A stretch of DNA of 64,000 bases, from the NCBI GenBank assembly GCA_037200525.1, contig JBBCGG010000001.1, positions 3,712,501-3,776,500 on the forward strand. The letters are read 5' to 3'. The translations under genes and the position numbers were made by a program. This stretch comes from Methylocella sp. (GTDB lineage: Bacteria; Pseudomonadota; Alphaproteobacteria; Rhizobiales; Beijerinckiaceae). The notes under the pieces are model-generated. The model was not told the DNA's origin. It ran no database searches and was given only the letters and a program-made list of their open reading frames with translations. Shown in pieces: positions 12,197-21,578 of this stretch (positions are counted from its first letter, which is position 1; each line of letters starts with the position of its first letter).

Positions 12197-12517
12197 CTAG
12201 CCTTGGCGATCCGGCGTCGTGACGATCAGTCCATCAAGCTCCGCCGCGATCTTGATCTGGCAGCATAGACGCGAGTTAGGCTGCACCTTATAGGCGAAAT
12301 CCAACATGTCTTCTTCTTGATCGCTGGCCTTGCCGGTCAAGCTGACCCACGCCTCATCGACATAGACATGGCAGGTGGCGCAGGCGCAACCGCCGCCGCA
12401 TTCAGCGGCGATCTCCGGAATTGCGTTGCGAATGGCGGCCTCCATAACGGTCGCGCCGACTTCGCCATCAACTGTCCGGGCTTCGCCCGAAGAGTCTACA
12501 AAAGTAATCTTTGGCAT
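12197..12517 (-). CDS. 2Fe-2S ferredoxin, adrenodoxin type
   Basis: Small one-electron carrier of 106 residues. The cluster ligands are visible as C-x5-C-x2-C in ECGGGCACATC and a fourth Cys in SRLCCQI. The pattern fits the ISC/adrenodoxin-type vertebrate-like family, which works in Fe-S assembly or with P450s and oxygenases, rather than the plant type. It is immediately upstream of the ferredoxin-NADP reductase gene on the same strand with a 200-base gap. The start ATG at 12517 is unambiguous (MPKITFVDSSGEART). Confidence 0.95.
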   Translation of the reverse strand: MPKITFVDSSGEARTVDGEVGATVMEAAIRNAIPEIAAECGGGCACATCHVYVDEAWVSLTGKASDQEEDMLDFAYKVQPNSRLCCQIKIAAELDGLIVTTPDRQG

Positions 12518-12725: not shown

Positions 12726-13112
12726 TTATTTGCCCAAATATTTTGTGAAAAACAAATCAATCGCGCCCGAAACATCTACAATGGAGGCCGCGAGATCGGC
12801 CAAAGCAAGATCCACCGCGTCGTTTGTATCCGCAGCGCCCATTTCGAGATTTTCCGCCGCGGCGGCGACCTGCGCGGCCCCGATCGCCAGCGCCGACCCC
12901 TTCAACAAATGCGCAAAACCGGCCGTTTTGGCGGGCGCGAGGTTCCTGGACTTTTGCAATTCCTGCAAAATCTCCTCCGCTTGCGCCCGAAATGCGGCCA
13001 AGAGCTCATATTGAAGGTCGGCGTCGCCGAAAGTCTGCCGCGTCAGATATGCGAAATCGAGCGCCAAACCTTGCGCCTCGCCGCGCTGATGAGAACTCTG
13101 CGGGCCTGTCAC
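12726..13112 (-). CDS. Orphan Hpt phosphotransfer protein
   Basis: Histidine phosphotransfer protein of 128 residues, almost entirely one four-helix Hpt domain. The phospho-accepting His lies in FAHLLKGSALAIGA, the typical AHxLKGSA context, around residue 68. There is no kinase or receiver domain in the gene or next to it, so its partners must be encoded elsewhere. It starts at a GTG (13112), with GAGG ten bases upstream. It is divergent from the giant polar-growth gene, and a CtrA-type box sits between them. A role in a cell-cycle phosphorelay is an inference from position. It is too unlike ChpT to be that protein. Confidence 0.88.
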   Translation of the reverse strand: MTGPQSSHQRGEAQGLALDFAYLTRQTFGDADLQYELLAAFRAQAEEILQELQKSRNLAPAKTAGFAHLLKGSALAIGAAQVAAAAENLEMGAADTNDAVDLALADLAASIVDVSGAIDLFFTKYLGK

Positions 13113-13319: not shown

Positions 13320-13334
13320 TTAACGATGTTTTAA
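13320..13334 (+). promoter_or_regulatory. CtrA-type binding box TTAA-N7-TTAA
   Basis: The sequence TTAACGATGTTTTAA matches the full consensus of the alphaproteobacterial cell-cycle regulator CtrA. It lies 135 bases before the start of the polar-growth gene and 207 bases before hpt. A perfect match can occur by chance in AT-rich DNA, but the gene context supports it. Confidence 0.55.
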
Positions 13335-13469
13335 GAAGGCCTTCGCGCTTGGGTTTGAATCCGTCCCCCCAGGTTGTAAAGTAAGAATTGGTTAATAGTT
13401 CCGCCTGCGGCTGCGCCGCTGTGTATTCGCGCTGATGCGCGTTCGCGAACGATTATGAAGAGGCACCGG

Positions 13470-16400
13470 ATGGCGAGTTCCCCCAAAAATCAAGATCCCG
13501 CAGCCGCGGCGCTCTTGGCCATCGAAGAGGCGTTGAACCTCCGAAACGAAATTGCCGACGCATTCCCCGCTCCTGGCGGCAAAGGCGGCGAAAACGCAAA
13601 AGATCAGCCCTCGCCGAAGCGCGAGCCCCGGTTGCCCTCAACCAGCGAAGATCAATTATTCGGTCCGGCGCGGGCGAGCGCCGCCGATGCGCGCGACGCC
13701 GAACGCTTCGGCCTGCTGGGGCGCGGGACGCAGCCGGCCAACGACGATCGTCATTCCGCCGGCGAACTCCTGCGAGCCTTCCAAGCTCGCTCCAGCCGCG
13801 TCCCGATGATTGTGGCGGCCTTGTGTTCCGGCCTCTGGATAGCCTTCACCGTCGGCTATCTTCTGACCAACCGCGAACAACTATTCAGCGCTCCCGGCTC
13901 CGCCCTGCCGGCGGCCGCGCTGTATTTTCTGGCCATCGCCGGCCCGGTCGTTTTCTTCCTTATCACCGCGACGATGGTTCGGCGCGCGCAGGAAATGCGG
14001 CTCACCGCCCGCTCCATGTCCGAAGTCGCCATCCGCCTCGCCGAGCCCGAGACCATCGCCACCGAGCAGATGGTGACGCTGTCCCAGGCCATTCGACGCG
14101 AAGTCGCCTCAATGGGCGATGGCATCGAGCGGGCGCTGGCGCGCGCCGGCGAGCTCGAGACGCTGGTCCGATCCGAAGTCTCAAATTTAGAGCGGTCTTA
14201 TTCGGATAACGAGCGCCGCGTACGCTCACTGATCGATGAATTGGCCTCGGAGCGCGAATCCATTCTGACCAACGCCGATCGCGTGCGCGGGGCCATCTCG
14301 CTCGCTCACGACAGCGTTGCTCGCGATCTCGAAACTGCATCGTCCCGGTTCGCCGAAAATGTCGGCGAAGCCGCCGGACGCGTCACAGCTTCGCTCAACG
14401 CCAAGGGCGAGGAAATCAAATCCGCCTTGAACATCGGCCGCGACGATATCGTCGGTCAACTGTCCAGTCACGGAAGCGAACTTCTTGGCCGGCTCACCCA
14501 AACGGGACAGGAGGCGACCGCCAACATCACGCAAGCCAGCAACGGCGTTGCGCAAACGCTCGACCTACGTCTCGCCGAAATGGACGAGCGTTTCAAGAAC
14601 GCGCGTGAGGCTCTCTCCGCCGACATTGGAATGCGCAGCGACGCGCTCGCGCAGCGTCTCGACGCGACCAGCGCTTCGATCGCCGACACGATTTCCACGC
14701 GCGGAGAAACGCTCGCGAAGCGCCTCGCGGAGACGGGCGATCGGCTGCATGAGGTCGTCGCGGTTCAAGGCAATGCCTTGCATGATGGTTTGGCCGAAAT
14801 GAGCGAACGCTTCGGCAATCTGATCGAGGACCGCACCAACGCGGCGCGCGGCGTCCTAGACGATTCGAGCAAGACGATCGTCACGCTCTTCGAAGACGGC
14901 CATGCGCGAATCCAATCCCAATTCGAACGCCACGGCGGCGAGTTGCAACAGAGCTTCACCGCGACCGCCGAAGCAACGGCGGCGGCGCTCACCAGTCATA
15001 CCGAAGCCTTGCACGAGCGGGTGGCCGCAGCGCTCGATGAGACGCTCAAGGCGTTGACGCATCATTCCGACCGTTTGCACGGGCATTTGGATCTAACGGC
15101 GCAAGACACCGTCGCCGCCTTCGTCGGACAAACGGAAGCGCTCAACGGGCAGCTCTCTTCCGTCCTCGCCGGGACGCTCGCCGCGCTGAACGATCACTCT
15201 TCGCTGATGAGCGAGCGGCTCGAAGCTGCGTCGGAACATGCGGCGGTCGACTTTGCTGGCCGCTCCGAAGCGCTGCACGAGCGCTTGGCTGCGACGATCG
15301 AAGAGACGCTTGGCGCTTTGGCGAACCACTCGGAACAGATCAGCGAGCGCCTAGAAACGTCGGCGCAACATTCCGTCTCGGTTCTCGCCGACCACGCCGA
15401 CGGGCTGCAGTCGCGTCTGACGTCGACGCTGGAAGCCTTGACCAATCATTCTGCACAGATCGGCGAGCGCCTTGAGGCGACGGCGCAGCATTCCGCCGGC
15501 GCCTTCGCCACGCAAACCGAGTCGTTGCACGAGCGCCTGAACTCGACGCTCAATGAAACCCTCGGAGCCCTGGCGAGCCATTCGGAAACAATGAGCGAGC
15601 GCCTTGAGGCGACTGCACAGCATTCCGTCGACGCCTTTGCCGGCCAGACCGACGCGCTGCATCAACGCCTGAATTCGACCCTCAGCGAAACGCTCGAAGC
15701 CTTGACGCGTCATTCCGAGGAGATGAGCGCGCGCCTTGAGGCGACAGCGCGCCTATCGGCGGATTCCCTGACCAGTCCGATCGAAGGGTTGCACGAGCGC
15801 TTGACCGCGACCCTCAGCGCCCTGAGCAATCACTCAGAACAGGTCAGCGAGCGCCTTGACGCGACGGCTTATCATTCCGTGGAGGCCTTTACCGGCCAGA
15901 CGGAAGCGCTGCATCAACTCCTGAACTCGACCCTCAACGAGACGCTCGAAGCCTTGACGCGTCATTCCGAGGAGATGAGCGCGCGCCTTGAGGCGACGTC
16001 GCGCCAATCGGCCGATTCCCTCACCACTCCGATCGAGAGCTTGCAGGAGCGCTTGAGCGCGACCCTCGGCGCTCTGCGCGATCACTCCGAACAGGTCAGC
16101 GAGCGCCTTGAGGCGACCGCTTATCATTCCGTGGAGGCCTTCACCGGCCAGACGGAAGCGCTGCATCAGCGTCTGAACTCGACCCTCAACGAAACGCTCG
16201 AAGCCTTGACGCGTCATTCCGAGGAGATGAGCGCCCGCCTTGAGGCGACAACGCGCCAATCGGCCGATTCCCTCACCGCCCCGATCGAGACCTTGCACGA
16301 GCGCCTGACGGCGACTCTGCGCGAGACGCTTGATGCGCTGACCACGCATTCGAACCAGATCAGCGAACGCCTTGAGGCGACTGCCGAACACTCCGTCGGC

Positions 16401-19400
16401 GCTCTGACGAGCCAGACGGAAGGATTGCATCAGCGTCTGGATGCGACTCTGCGCGAGACGCTCGATGCGCTGACGAGTCATTCCAGCCAGATGAGCGAAC
16501 GCCTCGAGGCGACCGCCGAGCACTCCGTCGGCGCTCTGACGAGTCAGACGGAGGGGTTGCATCAGCGTCTGGACGCGACCCTGCGCGAGACGCTCGACGC
16601 GCTGACGAGTCATTCCAGCCAGATGAGCGAACGGCTCGACGCATCGGTCGGAGAAACGCTCGGCGCCTTGACCAGCCATTCGGAAACAATGAGCGAGCGC
16701 ATGGAGGCGACCGCCCAGCATTCCGTAGTCGCCCTCGCCGATCATACGGAAACGCTGCAATCCCGCTTGGCGGCCACCCTCGGCGAAACCCTTGGCGTTC
16801 TGTCCGGCTACTCCGAGCAGTTGAGCGCGCGCCTCGACTCGACGGCGCGGCAATCTCTTGCCGCCTTCACAGACCATACGGGCGGTCTGCAGGAGCGGCT
16901 GACTTTGATGCTGGGCGAGGCTTTCGGCGCATTGTCGAGCCACGCCAATGAGATGAGCGAGCAGCTTGTGACCAGGAGCCATGAGGCGGTGTTGGCTTTC
17001 GCTGGCCAGACCGAAGCGTTGCAAGAGAGCTTCGACGCCACGGCGCAACAGGCGGTCGCCGCGATCGGCTACCACGCCAATGACCTCAATGACCGGTTCA
17101 CGGAAACCGCCAGCGAGGCGATCAACGCGATCGCGACGCATAGCGACCGGATCAATGAAGCGCTCTCCGATCGCCTCTTGATGTTCGAGGAGACTTTTAT
17201 CGGACAGGGCGGCGCCGTCACGCATAGCATCAGCGACCAGACCGAACGCTTCACCGCGACCCTCGCGGACCGCATCGGCTCGATCGAACATACGCTTACC
17301 GTTCACGGCGGCGATCTCAATGAAAAGCTTGCTCTGCGGGCGGAGGAGACCGCGGCGGCTTTGGAGGCGCGGATCGACGCCTTTGAAATGCGCACGGCCG
17401 CCAAGTCGCAGGAGATCGGCCAGGCGCTCGACGCGCTCGTCAGCCGCATCGACGAGGGCCTCGACTCGCACGCAACATCGCTCAACGAGACTCTCAGCGC
17501 GCGGGCTGGCGACATCGCCAGAGTTTTGAGCGAAGGAGGCCATGACGTCATCCGCGCGCTCGACGAGAAAGCCGCGGAAATTGGCGACATTCTCACGACG
17601 CGCTCGACAACGCTCACCGAAACTCTCGCCGGCAAGGCCAGCGAGATCAACGCGGCGCTCGGCGGACAAGCAAGCGCAATCGCAAACACCTTGGACAGCC
17701 GCATCACGGAGTTCGAAGACCGCGTCGTTGGCCGTCTCGACGCAGTTTCGGGGGAGCTCGACGCGCGAGGCCGCACCGTCGCCGACAATATCGCGGCTCG
17801 GACCAGCGAAATCGATCAGACCCTCGGCCTCCATGCCGGCAATATCAACGCGGCGCTTGATCGCGAGGCGGGCCATCTCGCCGAAATCCTTTCCGGCCGC
17901 GCCGCAGACATCAAGGAAATGGTTTCGCAGGCGACGGAGGACCTCGATGCGACCTTGGCAGGACGCGCGGGCCAGATCGGCGATACGCTCGCCGAGCGGG
18001 TCAATCAGATCAGCATGACTTTGGCGGGCCGGCTCGGCGAACTGGAAAGCGCGCTCGGCGGTCCCGCACAGGAGCTGCAAATCGCGCTGACGGAACGGGC
18101 GAAGGATCTGCGCGAGCTTTTCGATACGCGCGGCCAAAACCTTATCGCAACGCTATCGGCGCGCGGCAACGAGATCGCCGAGGAAATGACCAATGTCGGC
18201 GATCTCGTCACGCAAACCATCGAGAATCGCGGGGCGGCGATCACGCAACACCTCGGCGCCAAGCAAAATGAACTCACATCGGCGATCGATCGCTCCTCGG
18301 CCCGTCTGCGCTCCTCTGTGGAGGCCGGAGCCGCCGAATCGATAAATGCGCTCGTCGACGCTAACGCCAAATTGGGCGCCGAGATGACCGACGTAATCGC
18401 ACGTCTCGTCAGCAGCAGCTCATCCTTGCAAGACGCGATCGGCTCCGCCGGCTCGAACCTCGTCGCCGTGGAGCTTGCGTTGAGCGACCGCATGGATGAT
18501 TTCCGGTCGTTGCTCGGCAATGTCACCGGGGAAGTCGATCGCCTCAATAAAACCGCCGGAGACACCCTTTCCGAAGCCGGCAACCTTGCTGAAACAATAG
18601 CCCGTCAAGGCGAAGGCCTTAGCGCTTCGGCTGGCGAGCTGGTCAGATCGCAGAGCGAACTTGACCAAACGCTGGAGGCTCGCCGCGCATCGCTCGAGAC
18701 GCTGCTGCGCAGCATCAAGGATCGCCGCGACGACTTTGAAAGCGTGATTGGCTCGTTCACCGGCTTGGTCGAGGAAGCGTTCCACAACGCTGAAGGCCGC
18801 GCCCGCGATATCGGCTCCTATTTGGCCGAAACCTCGCAATCGGCCAGCGGAACCATTGACCGGCAATTCGCGGACCTGCGCTCCAACATTGGAGAAGAAC
18901 GCGAACGTACGGCGGCGGCGGTGCGCGCAGCGTGCGAACAGGCCAACGCCGAAATCGACGGCATCTTTGGCCAAACCTCGCAACGCTTCCAATCGGCGGC
19001 CTCAGAGCTGCGTCAGATGTCGCGCGAGATTCAGAACGAACTCTCGGCGACGAGGGAGGCGCTGCGCGCGAGCGTCGCTGAATTGCCGCAGGAAACTGCG
19101 CAGCAAGCAGCCTCGATGCGCAGAATCGTCGCCGATCAGATCAAGGCGCTCGAGGAATTGAGCGAGATCGTGACCCGCTCCGGCCGCTCGTTTGACGTCT
19201 CCGCCCCGCTCGCAACGGCCACAGAACGCGCTGCGCCGCCGGTGCCTGCGCGGCGGCTGGAGCAGCCTCGCTCGGCTGAGCCGGAACGCGCCCCCTTAGG
19301 GTCAGCGGCGATCGAACCGCGCCGTCCCCGGCCGCCGACGCCTGCTCCTAGCCGTGCGAGCGCACCGACGACAGAGCGCGGCGGCTGGCTCTCCGATCTT

Positions 19401-19817
19401 CTCGCCCGCGCTTCGACCGAGGAGCCGGCCCCCGCTCGAGAGCCCGCAAAAGAAATCGAAGCGAAAACGCCGCTGGCGCCCCAGCCGCTTGACGCGATCT
19501 CCCTCGACGTCGCCCGGATGATTGATCCAAACGCCGCCGCAGAGGCCTGGGAGCGTTATCGTCGCGGCGAGCCTAACGCCTTCTCGCGGCGGATCTATAT
19601 CGGCCGCGGCCTGCAGACTTTCGACGAGGTGCGCCGCCGCTATCGGCTCGATCCCGAATTCCACGCGACGATCGACCGCTATGTGCAAGAGTTCGAACGC
19701 CTCCTCGCGGAGCTGAACCGCGACAGCCCGGACGATGCGGCGACGCGGACCTATCTCACCTCCGAGACCGGCAAGGTCTATACGATGCTCGCCCACGCCT
19801 CGGGTCGGCTGGGATAG
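13470..19817 (+). CDS. gpr: Giant coiled-coil polar growth protein, GPR/RgsE-like
   Basis: Membrane-anchored protein of 2,115 residues, close to the length and layout of the Growth Pole Ring protein of Agrobacterium (RgsE in Sinorhizobium), a TipN-related factor that forms a ring at the growing pole. Residues 1-105 look disordered. Two membrane helices lie near 111-133 and 144-169. The rest is almost continuous helix. From about residue 505 to 1180 it is built of 44- and 40-residue repeats (four 11-residue units each), with motifs like HSEQVSERLEATAxHSVEAF and LHQRLNSTLNETLEAL. A Pro-rich linker (about 1910-2000) precedes a conserved C-terminal domain (IDPNAAAEAWERYRRGE). I start at the ATG at 13470, which has GAAGAGG upstream; an ATG at 13455 is also in frame. 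The GPR assignment rests on architecture and length. Confidence 0.85.
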   Translation: MASSPKNQDPAAAALLAIEEALNLRNEIADAFPAPGGKGGENAKDQPSPKREPRLPSTSEDQLFGPARASAADARDAERFGLLGRGTQPANDDRHSAGELLRAFQARSSRVPMIVAALCSGLWIAFTVGYLLTNREQLFSAPGSALPAAALYFLAIAGPVVFFLITATMVRRAQEMRLTARSMSEVAIRLAEPETIATEQMVTLSQAIRREVASMGDGIERALARAGELETLVRSEVSNLERSYSDNERRVRSLIDELASERESILTNADRVRGAISLAHDSVARDLETASSRFAENVGEAAGRVTASLNAKGEEIKSALNIGRDDIVGQLSSHGSELLGRLTQTGQEATANITQASNGVAQTLDLRLAEMDERFKNAREALSADIGMRSDALAQRLDATSASIADTISTRGETLAKRLAETGDRLHEVVAVQGNALHDGLAEMSERFGNLIEDRTNAARGVLDDSSKTIVTLFEDGHARIQSQFERHGGELQQSFTATAEATAAALTSHTEALHERVAAALDETLKALTHHSDRLHGHLDLTAQDTVAAFVGQTEALNGQLSSVLAGTLAALNDHSSLMSERLEAASEHAAVDFAGRSEALHERLAATIEETLGALANHSEQISERLETSAQHSVSVLADHADGLQSRLTSTLEALTNHSAQIGERLEATAQHSAGAFATQTESLHERLNSTLNETLGALASHSETMSERLEATAQHSVDAFAGQTDALHQRLNSTLSETLEALTRHSEEMSARLEATARLSADSLTSPIEGLHERLTATLSALSNHSEQVSERLDATAYHSVEAFTGQTEALHQLLNSTLNETLEALTRHSEEMSARLEATSRQSADSLTTPIESLQERLSATLGALRDHSEQVSERLEATAYHSVEAFTGQTEALHQRLNSTLNETLEALTRHSEEMSARLEATTRQSADSLTAPIETLHERLTATLRETLDALTTHSNQISERLEATAEHSVGALTSQTEGLHQRLDATLRETLDALTSHSSQMSERLEATAEHSVGALTSQTEGLHQRLDATLRETLDALTSHSSQMSERLDASVGETLGALTSHSETMSERMEATAQHSVVALADHTETLQSRLAATLGETLGVLSGYSEQLSARLDSTARQSLAAFTDHTGGLQERLTLMLGEAFGALSSHANEMSEQLVTRSHEAVLAFAGQTEALQESFDATAQQAVAAIGYHANDLNDRFTETASEAINAIATHSDRINEALSDRLLMFEETFIGQGGAVTHSISDQTERFTATLADRIGSIEHTLTVHGGDLNEKLALRAEETAAALEARIDAFEMRTAAKSQEIGQALDALVSRIDEGLDSHATSLNETLSARAGDIARVLSEGGHDVIRALDEKAAEIGDILTTRSTTLTETLAGKASEINAALGGQASAIANTLDSRITEFEDRVVGRLDAVSGELDARGRTVADNIAARTSEIDQTLGLHAGNINAALDREAGHLAEILSGRAADIKEMVSQATEDLDATLAGRAGQIGDTLAERVNQISMTLAGRLGELESALGGPAQELQIALTERAKDLRELFDTRGQNLIATLSARGNEIAEEMTNVGDLVTQTIENRGAAITQHLGAKQNELTSAIDRSSARLRSSVEAGAAESINALVDANAKLGAEMTDVIARLVSSSSSLQDAIGSAGSNLVAVELALSDRMDDFRSLLGNVTGEVDRLNKTAGDTLSEAGNLAETIARQGEGLSASAGELVRSQSELDQTLEARRASLETLLRSIKDRRDDFESVIGSFTGLVEEAFHNAEGRARDIGSYLAETSQSASGTIDRQFADLRSNIGEERERTAAAVRAACEQANAEIDGIFGQTSQRFQSAASELRQMSREIQNELSATREALRASVAELPQETAQQAASMRRIVADQIKALEELSEIVTRSGRSFDVSAPLATATERAAPPVPARRLEQPRSAEPERAPLGSAAIEPRRPRPPTPAPSRASAPTTERGGWLSDLLARASTEEPAPAREPAKEIEAKTPLAPQPLDAISLDVARMIDPNAAAEAWERYRRGEPNAFSRRIYIGRGLQTFDEVRRRYRLDPEFHATIDRYVQEFERLLAELNRDSPDDAATRTYLTSETGKVYTMLAHASGRLG
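14985..16995 (+). repeat. Coding tandem repeats of 132 and 120 bp inside the giant gene
   Basis: Direct repeats in frame encode the 44- and 40-residue helical units. Copies starting at 15871 and 16123 are near-identical and lie 252 bp apart (one 44- plus one 40-residue unit). Copies at 16391 and 16523 are near-identical and lie 132 bp apart. Such similarity at DNA level suggests recent unit duplication or gene conversion. The edges of the array are approximate. Confidence 0.85.
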
Positions 19818-19883: not shown

Positions 19884-20271
19884 GTTGCCAGCCGGCCTGT
19901 AAGCCGGGTTCTGTATGGCGCGCGGAAAAACCGCGCGCGTGACGGCCATTCCTCTGGGACGGCCGTTGCCGGCCGCCTCGAGCAACCAACCCGGGCGACA
20001 ATCCAGAGACGGATCTAAGGCTCAAGAACCTTGCGTCGCCCCTATTCGGTCTTGCTCCCGGTGGGGCTTGCCGTGCCGCCCATGTCGCCATGCGCGCGGT
20101 GCGCTCTTACCGCACCGTTTCACCCTTGCCTCTTGGCCTAAGCCGCAAGGCGGTTTGTTTTCTGTGGCGCTTTCCCTGGGGTCGCCCCCGCCGGACGTTA
20201 TCCGGCACCGTGTCTCTGTGGAGCCCGGACTTTCCTCCGCCGTAAGGCGGCGGCCATCCGGCCGGCTGGCC
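19884..20271 (-). ncRNA. rnpB: RNase P RNA
   Basis: Catalytic RNA of ribonuclease P, which matures tRNA 5' ends. On the minus strand the 5' P1 strand GCCAGCCGGCC pairs perfectly with GGCCGGCTGGC at the 3' end. The conserved core GAGGAAAGTCCGGGCTCC follows the 5' side, then AGAGACACGGTGCCGGATAA-type sequence, GGGTGAAACGGTGCGGTAAGAG, and near the 3' end ACAGAACCCGGCTTA. The length of about 390 is normal for alphaproteobacteria. The exact ends are estimated from P1 and from the promoter. It is convergent with the giant polar-growth gene. Confidence 0.95.
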
Positions 20272-20505: not shown

Positions 20506-20832
20506 ATGAAGAAGATTTTCTCTTTGGCGGCAGTTGTCGGCGCAGGCCTGACGCTTGCGGGATGCGGTTATACGCCTGAAGAGCGCGCTGGAAGCGGCGC
20601 TGCTATCGGCGGAGCAACAGGCGCGGCAATCGGCGCGGCCTCGGGCGGCGGCGTCGCCGGCACGCTCGTCGGCGGCGCGCTCGGCGCTGCGACTGGAGCG
20701 ATCGTCGGCGCTAATACGCGCCCGCCGCCGCCACCCCCGCCGCCAGGCTATTACCCGCCCCCGCCGCGTTGCGCGCAATTCGTCTATGACCCCTATGGCA
20801 ACCCACATTGCACAGCGTATTACGGCTATTGA
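20506..20832 (+). CDS. Glycine-zipper lipoprotein
   Basis: Small lipoprotein of 108 residues. The signal peptide MKKIFSLAAVVGAGLTLAGC ends in the lipobox LAGC, so the mature protein is lipid-modified and probably sits in the outer membrane. Gly/Ala repeats (GAAIGGATGAAIGAASGGG) form a glycine zipper as in OsmB/SlyB-like proteins. A proline run follows, with a tail containing YDPYGNPHC. I chose the ATG at 20506 because it opens the signal peptide and AGGA lies upstream. The stop overlaps the likely TTG start of the amidase gene. The function is unknown beyond envelope association. Confidence 0.85.
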   Translation: MKKIFSLAAVVGAGLTLAGCGYTPEERAGSGAAIGGATGAAIGAASGGGVAGTLVGGALGAATGAIVGANTRPPPPPPPPGYYPPPPRCAQFVYDPYGNPHCTAYYGY

Positions 20833-21578
20833 AACCTGACACCGCTTTATCCGCGACGGTTCGTCCATCGCCAAACCACGGCGAGCGCAAGGGCGGCCGG
20901 GTTCCGAACTCGCTCATCCTTCATTACACAGGCTTGACGAGCGGAGAGGCGGCCGTCCAGCTTCTCTGCGATCCGGTCGCGGAGGTCTCCTCCCATTATC
21001 TGGTGCTGGAGGATGGAAGCCTGCTTCAGCTAGTGCCGGAATCGCGGCGCGCATGGCATGCGGGCCGCGGCGTTTGGGCCGGCGAAAGCGACATGAACGA
21101 CGTCTCGATCGGGATCGAGGTCGCGCATCCCGGCCATAAGGGGGGATCGCCGCCCTACCCGTCGGCGCAGATCGCAACCGTCATCGCCCTATGTCAGGAC
21201 ATTCTTTCGCGACACGCGATCCCGCCGCAACGGGTGCTAGGACATTCGGATATTGCGCCCTACCGCAAGATCGATCCCGGCGAGTTTTTCCCCTGGTCCT
21301 ATCTCGCCAAGGCTGGCGTTGGCCATTATGTCGCCCCCTGCGCAATAGGAGACAGCCCCCGTCTTGAACAAGGCGCGCAAGGATCTGAGGTTGAGGAACT
21401 GCAAGCCGCGCTGATCAGCTATGGCTATGATCTCGACGTCACAGGCCTCTTTGACGCCAAAACCGAAACTATCGTTCGCGCCTTCCAGCGCCATTTCCGC
21501 CCGGCTCTCGTCGACGGCGTCGCCGATTTCTCGACGATCACGACATTGCGAAAGCTCATCGCCTCTTCGCCAAAATAA
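20829..21578 (+). CDS. N-acetylmuramoyl-L-alanine amidase, AmpD-like, with PG-binding domain
   Basis: Zinc amidase cutting the lactyl-Ala bond of muropeptides, of about 249 residues. The N-terminal half is Amidase_2: LILHYTGL gives the first zinc His, SSHYLV and GHSDIAPYRKIDPGE the others. A PG_binding_1 domain follows (VEELQAALISYGYDLDVTGLFD). No signal peptide is visible, so it may act on recycled muropeptides in the cytoplasm like AmpD, working with NagZ at 49 kb. The start is uncertain: a TTG at 20829 that overlaps the preceding stop (ATTGA) is most plausible, and a TTG at 20808 is the other choice. There is no good ribosome site, so translation may be coupled to the lipoprotein gene. Confidence 0.88.
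   Translation: MKPDTALSATVRPSPNHGERKGGRVPNSLILHYTGLTSGEAAVQLLCDPVAEVSSHYLVLEDGSLLQLVPESRRAWHAGRGVWAGESDMNDVSIGIEVAHPGHKGGSPPYPSAQIATVIALCQDILSRHAIPPQRVLGHSDIAPYRKIDPGEFFPWSYLAKAGVGHYVAPCAIGDSPRLEQGAQGSEVEELQAALISYGYDLDVTGLFDAKTETIVRAFQRHFRPALVDGVADFSTITTLRKLIASSPK

Follow-up and report, generated by a model that had tools for sequence, protein, structure and literature searches.

A window of 64,000 nucleotides from Methylocella sp. (contig JBBCGG010000001.1, positions 3,712,501 to 3,776,500 of the forward strand; "the window" below means this whole stretch) contains an open reading frame at 13470–19817 on the forward strand, which encodes a protein of 2,115 amino acids (aa) with a long series of internal repeats. 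What is this protein, and how have its repeats come about? From the comparisons below, it is very probably the GPR/RgsE ortholog of a Beijerinckiaceae methanotroph (the GTDB genus holding Methylocella and Methylocapsa), with an inner rod that would be evolving by in-frame copying that keeps the phase of its coiled coil. GPR/RgsE is central to the one-pole growth of some rods that lack MreB. As an ortholog of an important protein that is already known, the window protein is ordinary; its young repeats are well dated, and the interest lies in the way the rod has been copied in phase and in the leads to its regulation.

The initial annotation had proposed a GPR/RgsE-like protein from length and layout, and the two ends of the protein, together with synteny, bear this out. 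The N-terminal 260 aa are 39% identical over 280 columns (E value 1e-47), and the C-terminal 240 aa 45% identical over 257 columns (E value 2e-62), to a protein of S. meliloti Ak57 whose length of 2,089 aa equals that given for RgsE in the text of PMC7327166. Both proteins have two N-terminal membrane segments, a helical rod of great length that matches PF01442, as is typical of GPR/RgsE, and the C-terminal domain; in both genomes an Hpt gene and a 2Fe-2S gene lie divergently upstream. RgsE (SMc00190) also has a fresh internal repeat of its own (offset 87 bp, 92%), but its best repeat unit has 29 residues, against 44 and 84 in the window protein. GPR of A. tumefaciens (Atu1348) is likewise similar in length, in its two membrane helices, in its long PF01442-matching helical rod and in a proline-rich region before the C-terminus, as far as the description in PMC8262873 goes; it forms a ring of six foci. 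The identical length of 2,115 aa in the window protein and Agrobacterium GPR looks like a coincidence, since the frames of at least 700 aa in the order range from 708 to 2,940 aa, some of them perhaps cut by contig ends.

The C-terminal domain was found in 39 of 40 relatives, in 291 of 297 Rhizobiales genomes and in 76 of the 192 genomes of an alphaproteobacterial class sample, 73 of these 76 lying outside Rhizobiales, and in 122 of 125 loci a single frame holds both the N- and the C-terminal domain. Five columns of the domain are invariant over 16 diverse rows of the alignment. Its structure model has a mean confidence score (pLDDT) of 77; against the PDB it gave nothing convincing (best Foldseek E value 1.2, best profile-search E value 0.07), and no family of Pfam or NCBIfam reached its cut-off. 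TipN of Caulobacter is a polar membrane coiled-coil protein as well, and resembles the window protein to that extent. A different identity, the tail of a ZorA-like anti-phage motor, is proposed by an NCBIfam ZorA_1 match (E value 8e-14); but its score is 50.8 bits against a family cut-off of 190, the best stretch lies inside the coiled coil, and RgsE matches too, at 69.8 bits. With end domains of GPR/RgsE and a score so far below the cut-off, the ZorA identity is ruled out, its chance being negligible.

A separate observation concerns the S. meliloti Ak57 record CP090106.1 (L140), which is 3.7 Mb long, is labelled pSymB and holds rgsE under the annotation "kinesin". Since rgsE lies there beside folate and cytochrome bc1 genes, the record is probably a mislabelled chromosome.

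The host genome is assembled as one 5.24-Mb contig, in which the gene was matched once; an in-frame upstream ATG at 13455 would give 2,120 aa instead of 2,115. The membrane-anchored coiled-coil protein described at first holds good in its anatomy, all of it on the forward strand. Two hydrophobic segments, residues 114–132 and 148–166 (13809–13967), are the predicted membrane anchor. They are followed by the rod, residues 261–1880 (14250–19109), which contains only 5 prolines and whose hydrophobic periodicity peaks at 98.3–98.4 degrees per residue, that is, a period of 3.66 residues (11/3); for this reason the rod is taken as a hendecad coiled coil. A single-sequence model of residues 700–1075, of low confidence (pLDDT 67), is a nearly continuous helix. 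A proline-rich linker, read from the translation at about residues 1885–2000 (19122–19469), leads to the conserved all-helical C-terminal domain, residues 2001–2115 (19470–19814).

Within the rod, residues 509–1200 (14994–17069) are built of 22-residue blocks, two to a unit, which makes 16 units (13 of 44 aa and 3 of 40 aa), as counted by hand in a register walk; in the 40-residue units one 22-mer is shortened to 18. The initial annotation had given about 15 helical repeats of 44 or 40 residues with an 11-residue periodicity, which agrees with this count and with the hydrophobic period. Its near-identical DNA copies at 252- and 132-bp spacing were found again by three methods: there are tandem arrays with periods of 132 and 252 bp and a family of 10 copies spaced 252, 132 and 66, the best 120-nt internal match is 95% at offset 252, and at offset 132 there are 8 differences per 120 nt. 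Chance alone would not produce repeats this long and this similar. The 252-bp copies (84 aa, 44 + 40) cover residues 725–936 (15642–16277) and the 132-bp copies (44 aa) residues 937–1068 (16278–16673). Among 102 orthologs (the frame is cut in 4), the window gene ranks first with 1,010 nt covered by internal repeats of at least 90%, so that its repeats are indeed the most extensive of this kind; they are not unique, however, since 18 of the 102, scored by their best 120-nt internal match, have repeats of at least 90%, 48 have repeats of at least 75%, and 54 have none of at least 75%. The description of the repeats as unusually regular in the initial annotation thus holds only in part. Opposite the repeats, on the reverse strand, a 767-residue open frame runs at 15834–18137; it most likely results from the repetitive, GC-rich codons.

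The age of the copies was read from identities and from fourfold degenerate sites. The 8 interior units, residues 725 to 1068, are 0.81–0.95 identical among themselves and at most 0.71 identical to any unit of 13 relatives. Among the 9 other scored units, 8 (starting at residues 509, 553, 597, 681, 1069, 1113, 1157 and 1201) are nearest to units of other species, with identities up to 0.83. At fourfold sites, the copies of the 252-bp block differ at 2 of 25 and 7 of 43 positions (0.08–0.16), and those of the 132-bp block at 6 of 20 and 6 of 23 (0.26–0.30). The divergence from the nearest relative is 102/187 in the N-terminal part and 25/59 in the C-terminal domain (0.42–0.55), and from the other relatives compared it is no less than 18/47, the overall range being 0.38–0.55. 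Since 0.08–0.16 within the gene stands against 0.38–0.55 between species, the 252-bp copies either came into being after the lineage had parted from all species sampled or have been homogenised since. The description of the repeats as freshly copied is thus sound for the interior of the rod.

The rods of close relatives have changed in the same region but separately: M. aurea (L032), M. palsarum (L035) and one further locus (L112) each have their own inner-rod expansion. Within the genus, 12 intact genes encode 1,733–2,332 aa, and the number of scored 44-aa units, some of them overlapping, varies from 8 to 25 in 13 genes, one of which (L032) is broken. Such natural length variants in near relatives are ready-made test constructs. 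In a limited literature search, little was found described on the evolution of the rod repeats of GPR.

The copying follows the phase of the coil. In all 48 genes with internal repeats of at least 75%, the best internal offset is in frame, and in residues modulo 11 it is 0 in 37 genes, 7 in 10 and 3 in one, so that the phase of the coil is kept throughout. Since 11 − 4 = 7, each odd step swaps a hendecad for a heptad and the coil remains in phase. Recombination between old 11-mers alone would yield multiples of 11; the heptad steps mean that a phase-keeping shortening has been copied as well. The protein may accordingly be pictured as follows. The two N-terminal helices would anchor it in the membrane, the rod would be a hendecad coiled coil in the cytoplasm, about 1,600 residues long, and the small helical C-terminal domain would end it; by homology, the whole would probably be a scaffold at the growing pole, where this cell without MreB extends its wall and membrane. 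Unequal exchange between near-identical repeats, or slippage of replication among them, would lengthen or shorten the inner rod in frame, in steps of 11n, 11n + 7 or 11n + 14 residues that would keep the hydrophobic stripe in phase; the two end domains and most of the outer repeats would stay orthologous between species.

Several points weigh against this account. The homology is carried by the end domains only, to which it is confined because the rod is repetitive, and the S. meliloti comparison record is from another strain and was deposited as a plasmid. One outer scored unit, 637, is out of register and nearest to units within its own gene (0.62 against 0.59), and the 132-bp copies, with the fourfold values given above, are somewhat older than the 252-bp copies. 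An ancestral 11-residue repeat would in part yield phase-keeping offsets by itself, so that such offsets alone are no proof of selection. Finally, just 2 of the 13 loci from the genus have the Hpt neighbour, and just one (L092) of the loci titled Microvirga does.

What the copying is for, if anything, can be explained in different ways. The suggestion in the initial annotation, that the repeats may tune ring size or rod length, amounts to an adaptive ruler, in which extra 44-residue units would change the size of the ring, the geometry of the pole or the width of the cell, and the length would be fixed by selection. A 44-residue unit measures about 6.6 nm as a straight helix, at the standard rise of 0.15 nm. 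The variation of length and unit number in the genus and the coil phase kept in every clear case are in line with a ruler, and so is the report, in the text of PMC8262873, that deletions of rod segments in Agrobacterium GPR change the cell shape and the ring foci. According to the same text, however, cells with GPR(ΔA-IV-4) are still rod-shaped with paired foci, a partial complementation, and the patchy occurrence of copies among close relatives is what one would expect of slippage that the cell simply tolerates; the ruler is thus rather unlikely. It is moderately probable that slippage is neutral, the rod needing only a phased coiled coil above some length while the copy number drifts. This agrees with the four separate inner-rod expansions (in the window, M. 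aurea, M. palsarum and L112) and with the uneven spread of repeats over the 102 orthologs, from copies of at least 90% to no repeat of at least 75%. It is compatible with phase-keeping in-frame copying as the best explanation; but selection on phase is likely, and slippage would then not be wholly neutral. Tandem repeats can also be assembled wrongly. In this case the genome is one contig, the frame is intact, the copies compared differ by 5–19% and similar arrays occur in other assemblies, which makes an artefact highly improbable.

The rod has also been given another label. GPR was classed as an apolipoprotein in the text of PMC8262873, and PF01442 matches the window protein with 355 bits; among PDB sequences, phmmer matches it to apolipoproteins A-IV and E (best E value 4e-8). 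Membership of this family would make the protein an apolipoprotein-like lipid binder. A 440-residue rod segment (residues 509–948; 14994–16313) scored 125 bits forward and 104 bits reversed, both over the cut-off of 90, and the same segment shuffled gave nothing. The forward segment does have an excess of 21 bits; yet, since the reversed rod passes and the shuffled one fails, the match mostly reports the 11/22-residue amphipathic period, and similarity beyond that periodic pattern, as common descent with apolipoproteins would need, was not found in this comparison. The nonpolar stripe of the rod is moreover narrow (positions 6, 10, 12, 14, 18, 20 and 21 of 22), lysine makes up only 0.1% of residues 501–1200, and PF01442 matches occur in 7 of 14 control genomes, none above the cut-off. 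An apolipoprotein-like protein is therefore improbable here. Lipid binding is possible, and the PF01442 match lends little independent support to the published reasoning; it may help the field to see that the label rests largely on helix periodicity.

The occurrence of GPR/RgsE and of MreB was compared across genomes. The window genome has no true MreB: the best match to the MreB model is 55 bits, against 368–485 bits in the 33 MreB-bearing genomes of the order, and the weak matches (at most 55 bits) are probably DnaK and FtsA, judging from their sizes. PMC7327166, in which a ±50% size filter was used for RgsE, states that homologs of Rgs proteins and of MreB exclude each other. For the GPR/RgsE protein this exclusion is not upheld in the genomes sampled: all 33 of the 297 Rhizobiales genomes that have MreB carry the GPR C-terminal domain, and MreB is present in 70 of the 73 domain-bearing alphaproteobacterial genomes outside the order. 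That GPR-type proteins are not exclusive of MreB may be useful to the field. The GPR-like proteins of MreB-bearing Alphaproteobacteria share both end domains with the window protein and likewise have a divergent Hpt gene beside them (16 of 16 MreB-bearing Rhizobiales loci examined), but they are short, 815–1,498 aa in the 29 frames kept from MreB-bearing genomes of the order. A Sphingomonas homolog (L143) also has the C-terminal domain and the divergent Hpt gene; its N-terminal match is a weak BLAST match only (2e-7), with none by profile, and its Hpt protein is without H..KG.

Within the order, after 18 frames under 700 aa, 4 of them from MreB-bearing genomes, had been dropped, frames of at least 1,500 aa occur in 0 of 29 genomes with MreB and 192 of 244 without it. 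The Mann-Whitney test on length gives p = 2e-12 by genome and 0.002 by family median, neither value being corrected for kinship; the supported branches of the tree provide no more than 4 independent contrasts, of which 1 points the expected way and 3 show no difference. The MreB-less members of two families (f2 and f31) are short as well, and the median is under 1,500 aa in 13 of 37 MreB-less families. Outside the order, 10 of the 73 domain-bearing genomes have frames of at least 1,500 aa, and all 10 have MreB. The idea that long rods evolve after the loss of MreB was thus rejected as a general rule, as it fails outside the order.

Upstream of the gene there are leads to its regulation. An exact TTAA-N7-TTAA, the full CtrA site according to the text of PMC6180460, lies at 13320–13334 on the forward strand, 150 nt before the start codon and between the Hpt gene and gpr; it is the only exact one in the window, where 0.11 are expected. 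A second near-match (7 of 8) can be read at 13381–13395 on the same strand, and several near relatives have one in roughly this position, at −91 to −97. Among 114 gpr loci, many of them close kin, 9 have an exact site upstream and 90 have a match of 7 of 8 or better within 350 nt, against 10.1 expected from first-order resampling; in a subset of 40 genome loci that includes the window, 21 have a match of 7 of 8 or better. From this enrichment, control of gpr by CtrA is predicted. SMc00190 is absent from the main text of the S. meliloti CtrA chromatin immunoprecipitation paper (PMC4433202).

The Hpt phosphotransfer gene (12726–13112, reverse strand, with an HLLKG motif) is divergent from gpr, and the 2Fe-2S ferredoxin gene (12197–12517, reverse strand) belongs to the same conserved neighbourhood. 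Of the 116 loci with enough upstream sequence, 62 have a divergent Hpt gene no more than 2.5 kb away, and the H..KG motif is present in 51 of 63 neighbouring Hpt proteins. Since it is missing near many orthologs, the Hpt neighbour is not required; the reach of the pairing to MreB-bearing Rhizobiales and Sphingomonas, though it is lost in many relatives, suggests an old functional link. Together, the enriched CtrA-type site and the recurrent Hpt neighbour suggest cell-cycle control, and may serve the field as leads to it. Tentatively, and with some doubt, GPR may have arisen by enlargement of an ancient pole organiser of Alphaproteobacteria (anchor, phased rod, C-terminal domain, often with Hpt and a CtrA-type site) that already coexisted with MreB, with a rod evolving in quanta of coil phase (11n, 11n + 7) by repeat copying and a supply tied to the cell cycle by the CtrA site and Hpt.

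On the other side of the gene, directly downstream of gpr, the class A RNase P RNA gene lies at 19884–20269 on the reverse strand, so that the open frames listed there are probably spurious. A short way after gpr, at 20808–21578 on the forward strand, there is a peptidoglycan amidase gene (Amidase_2 and PG_binding_1), preceded by a glycine-zipper protein; these neighbours are possibly related to the wall.

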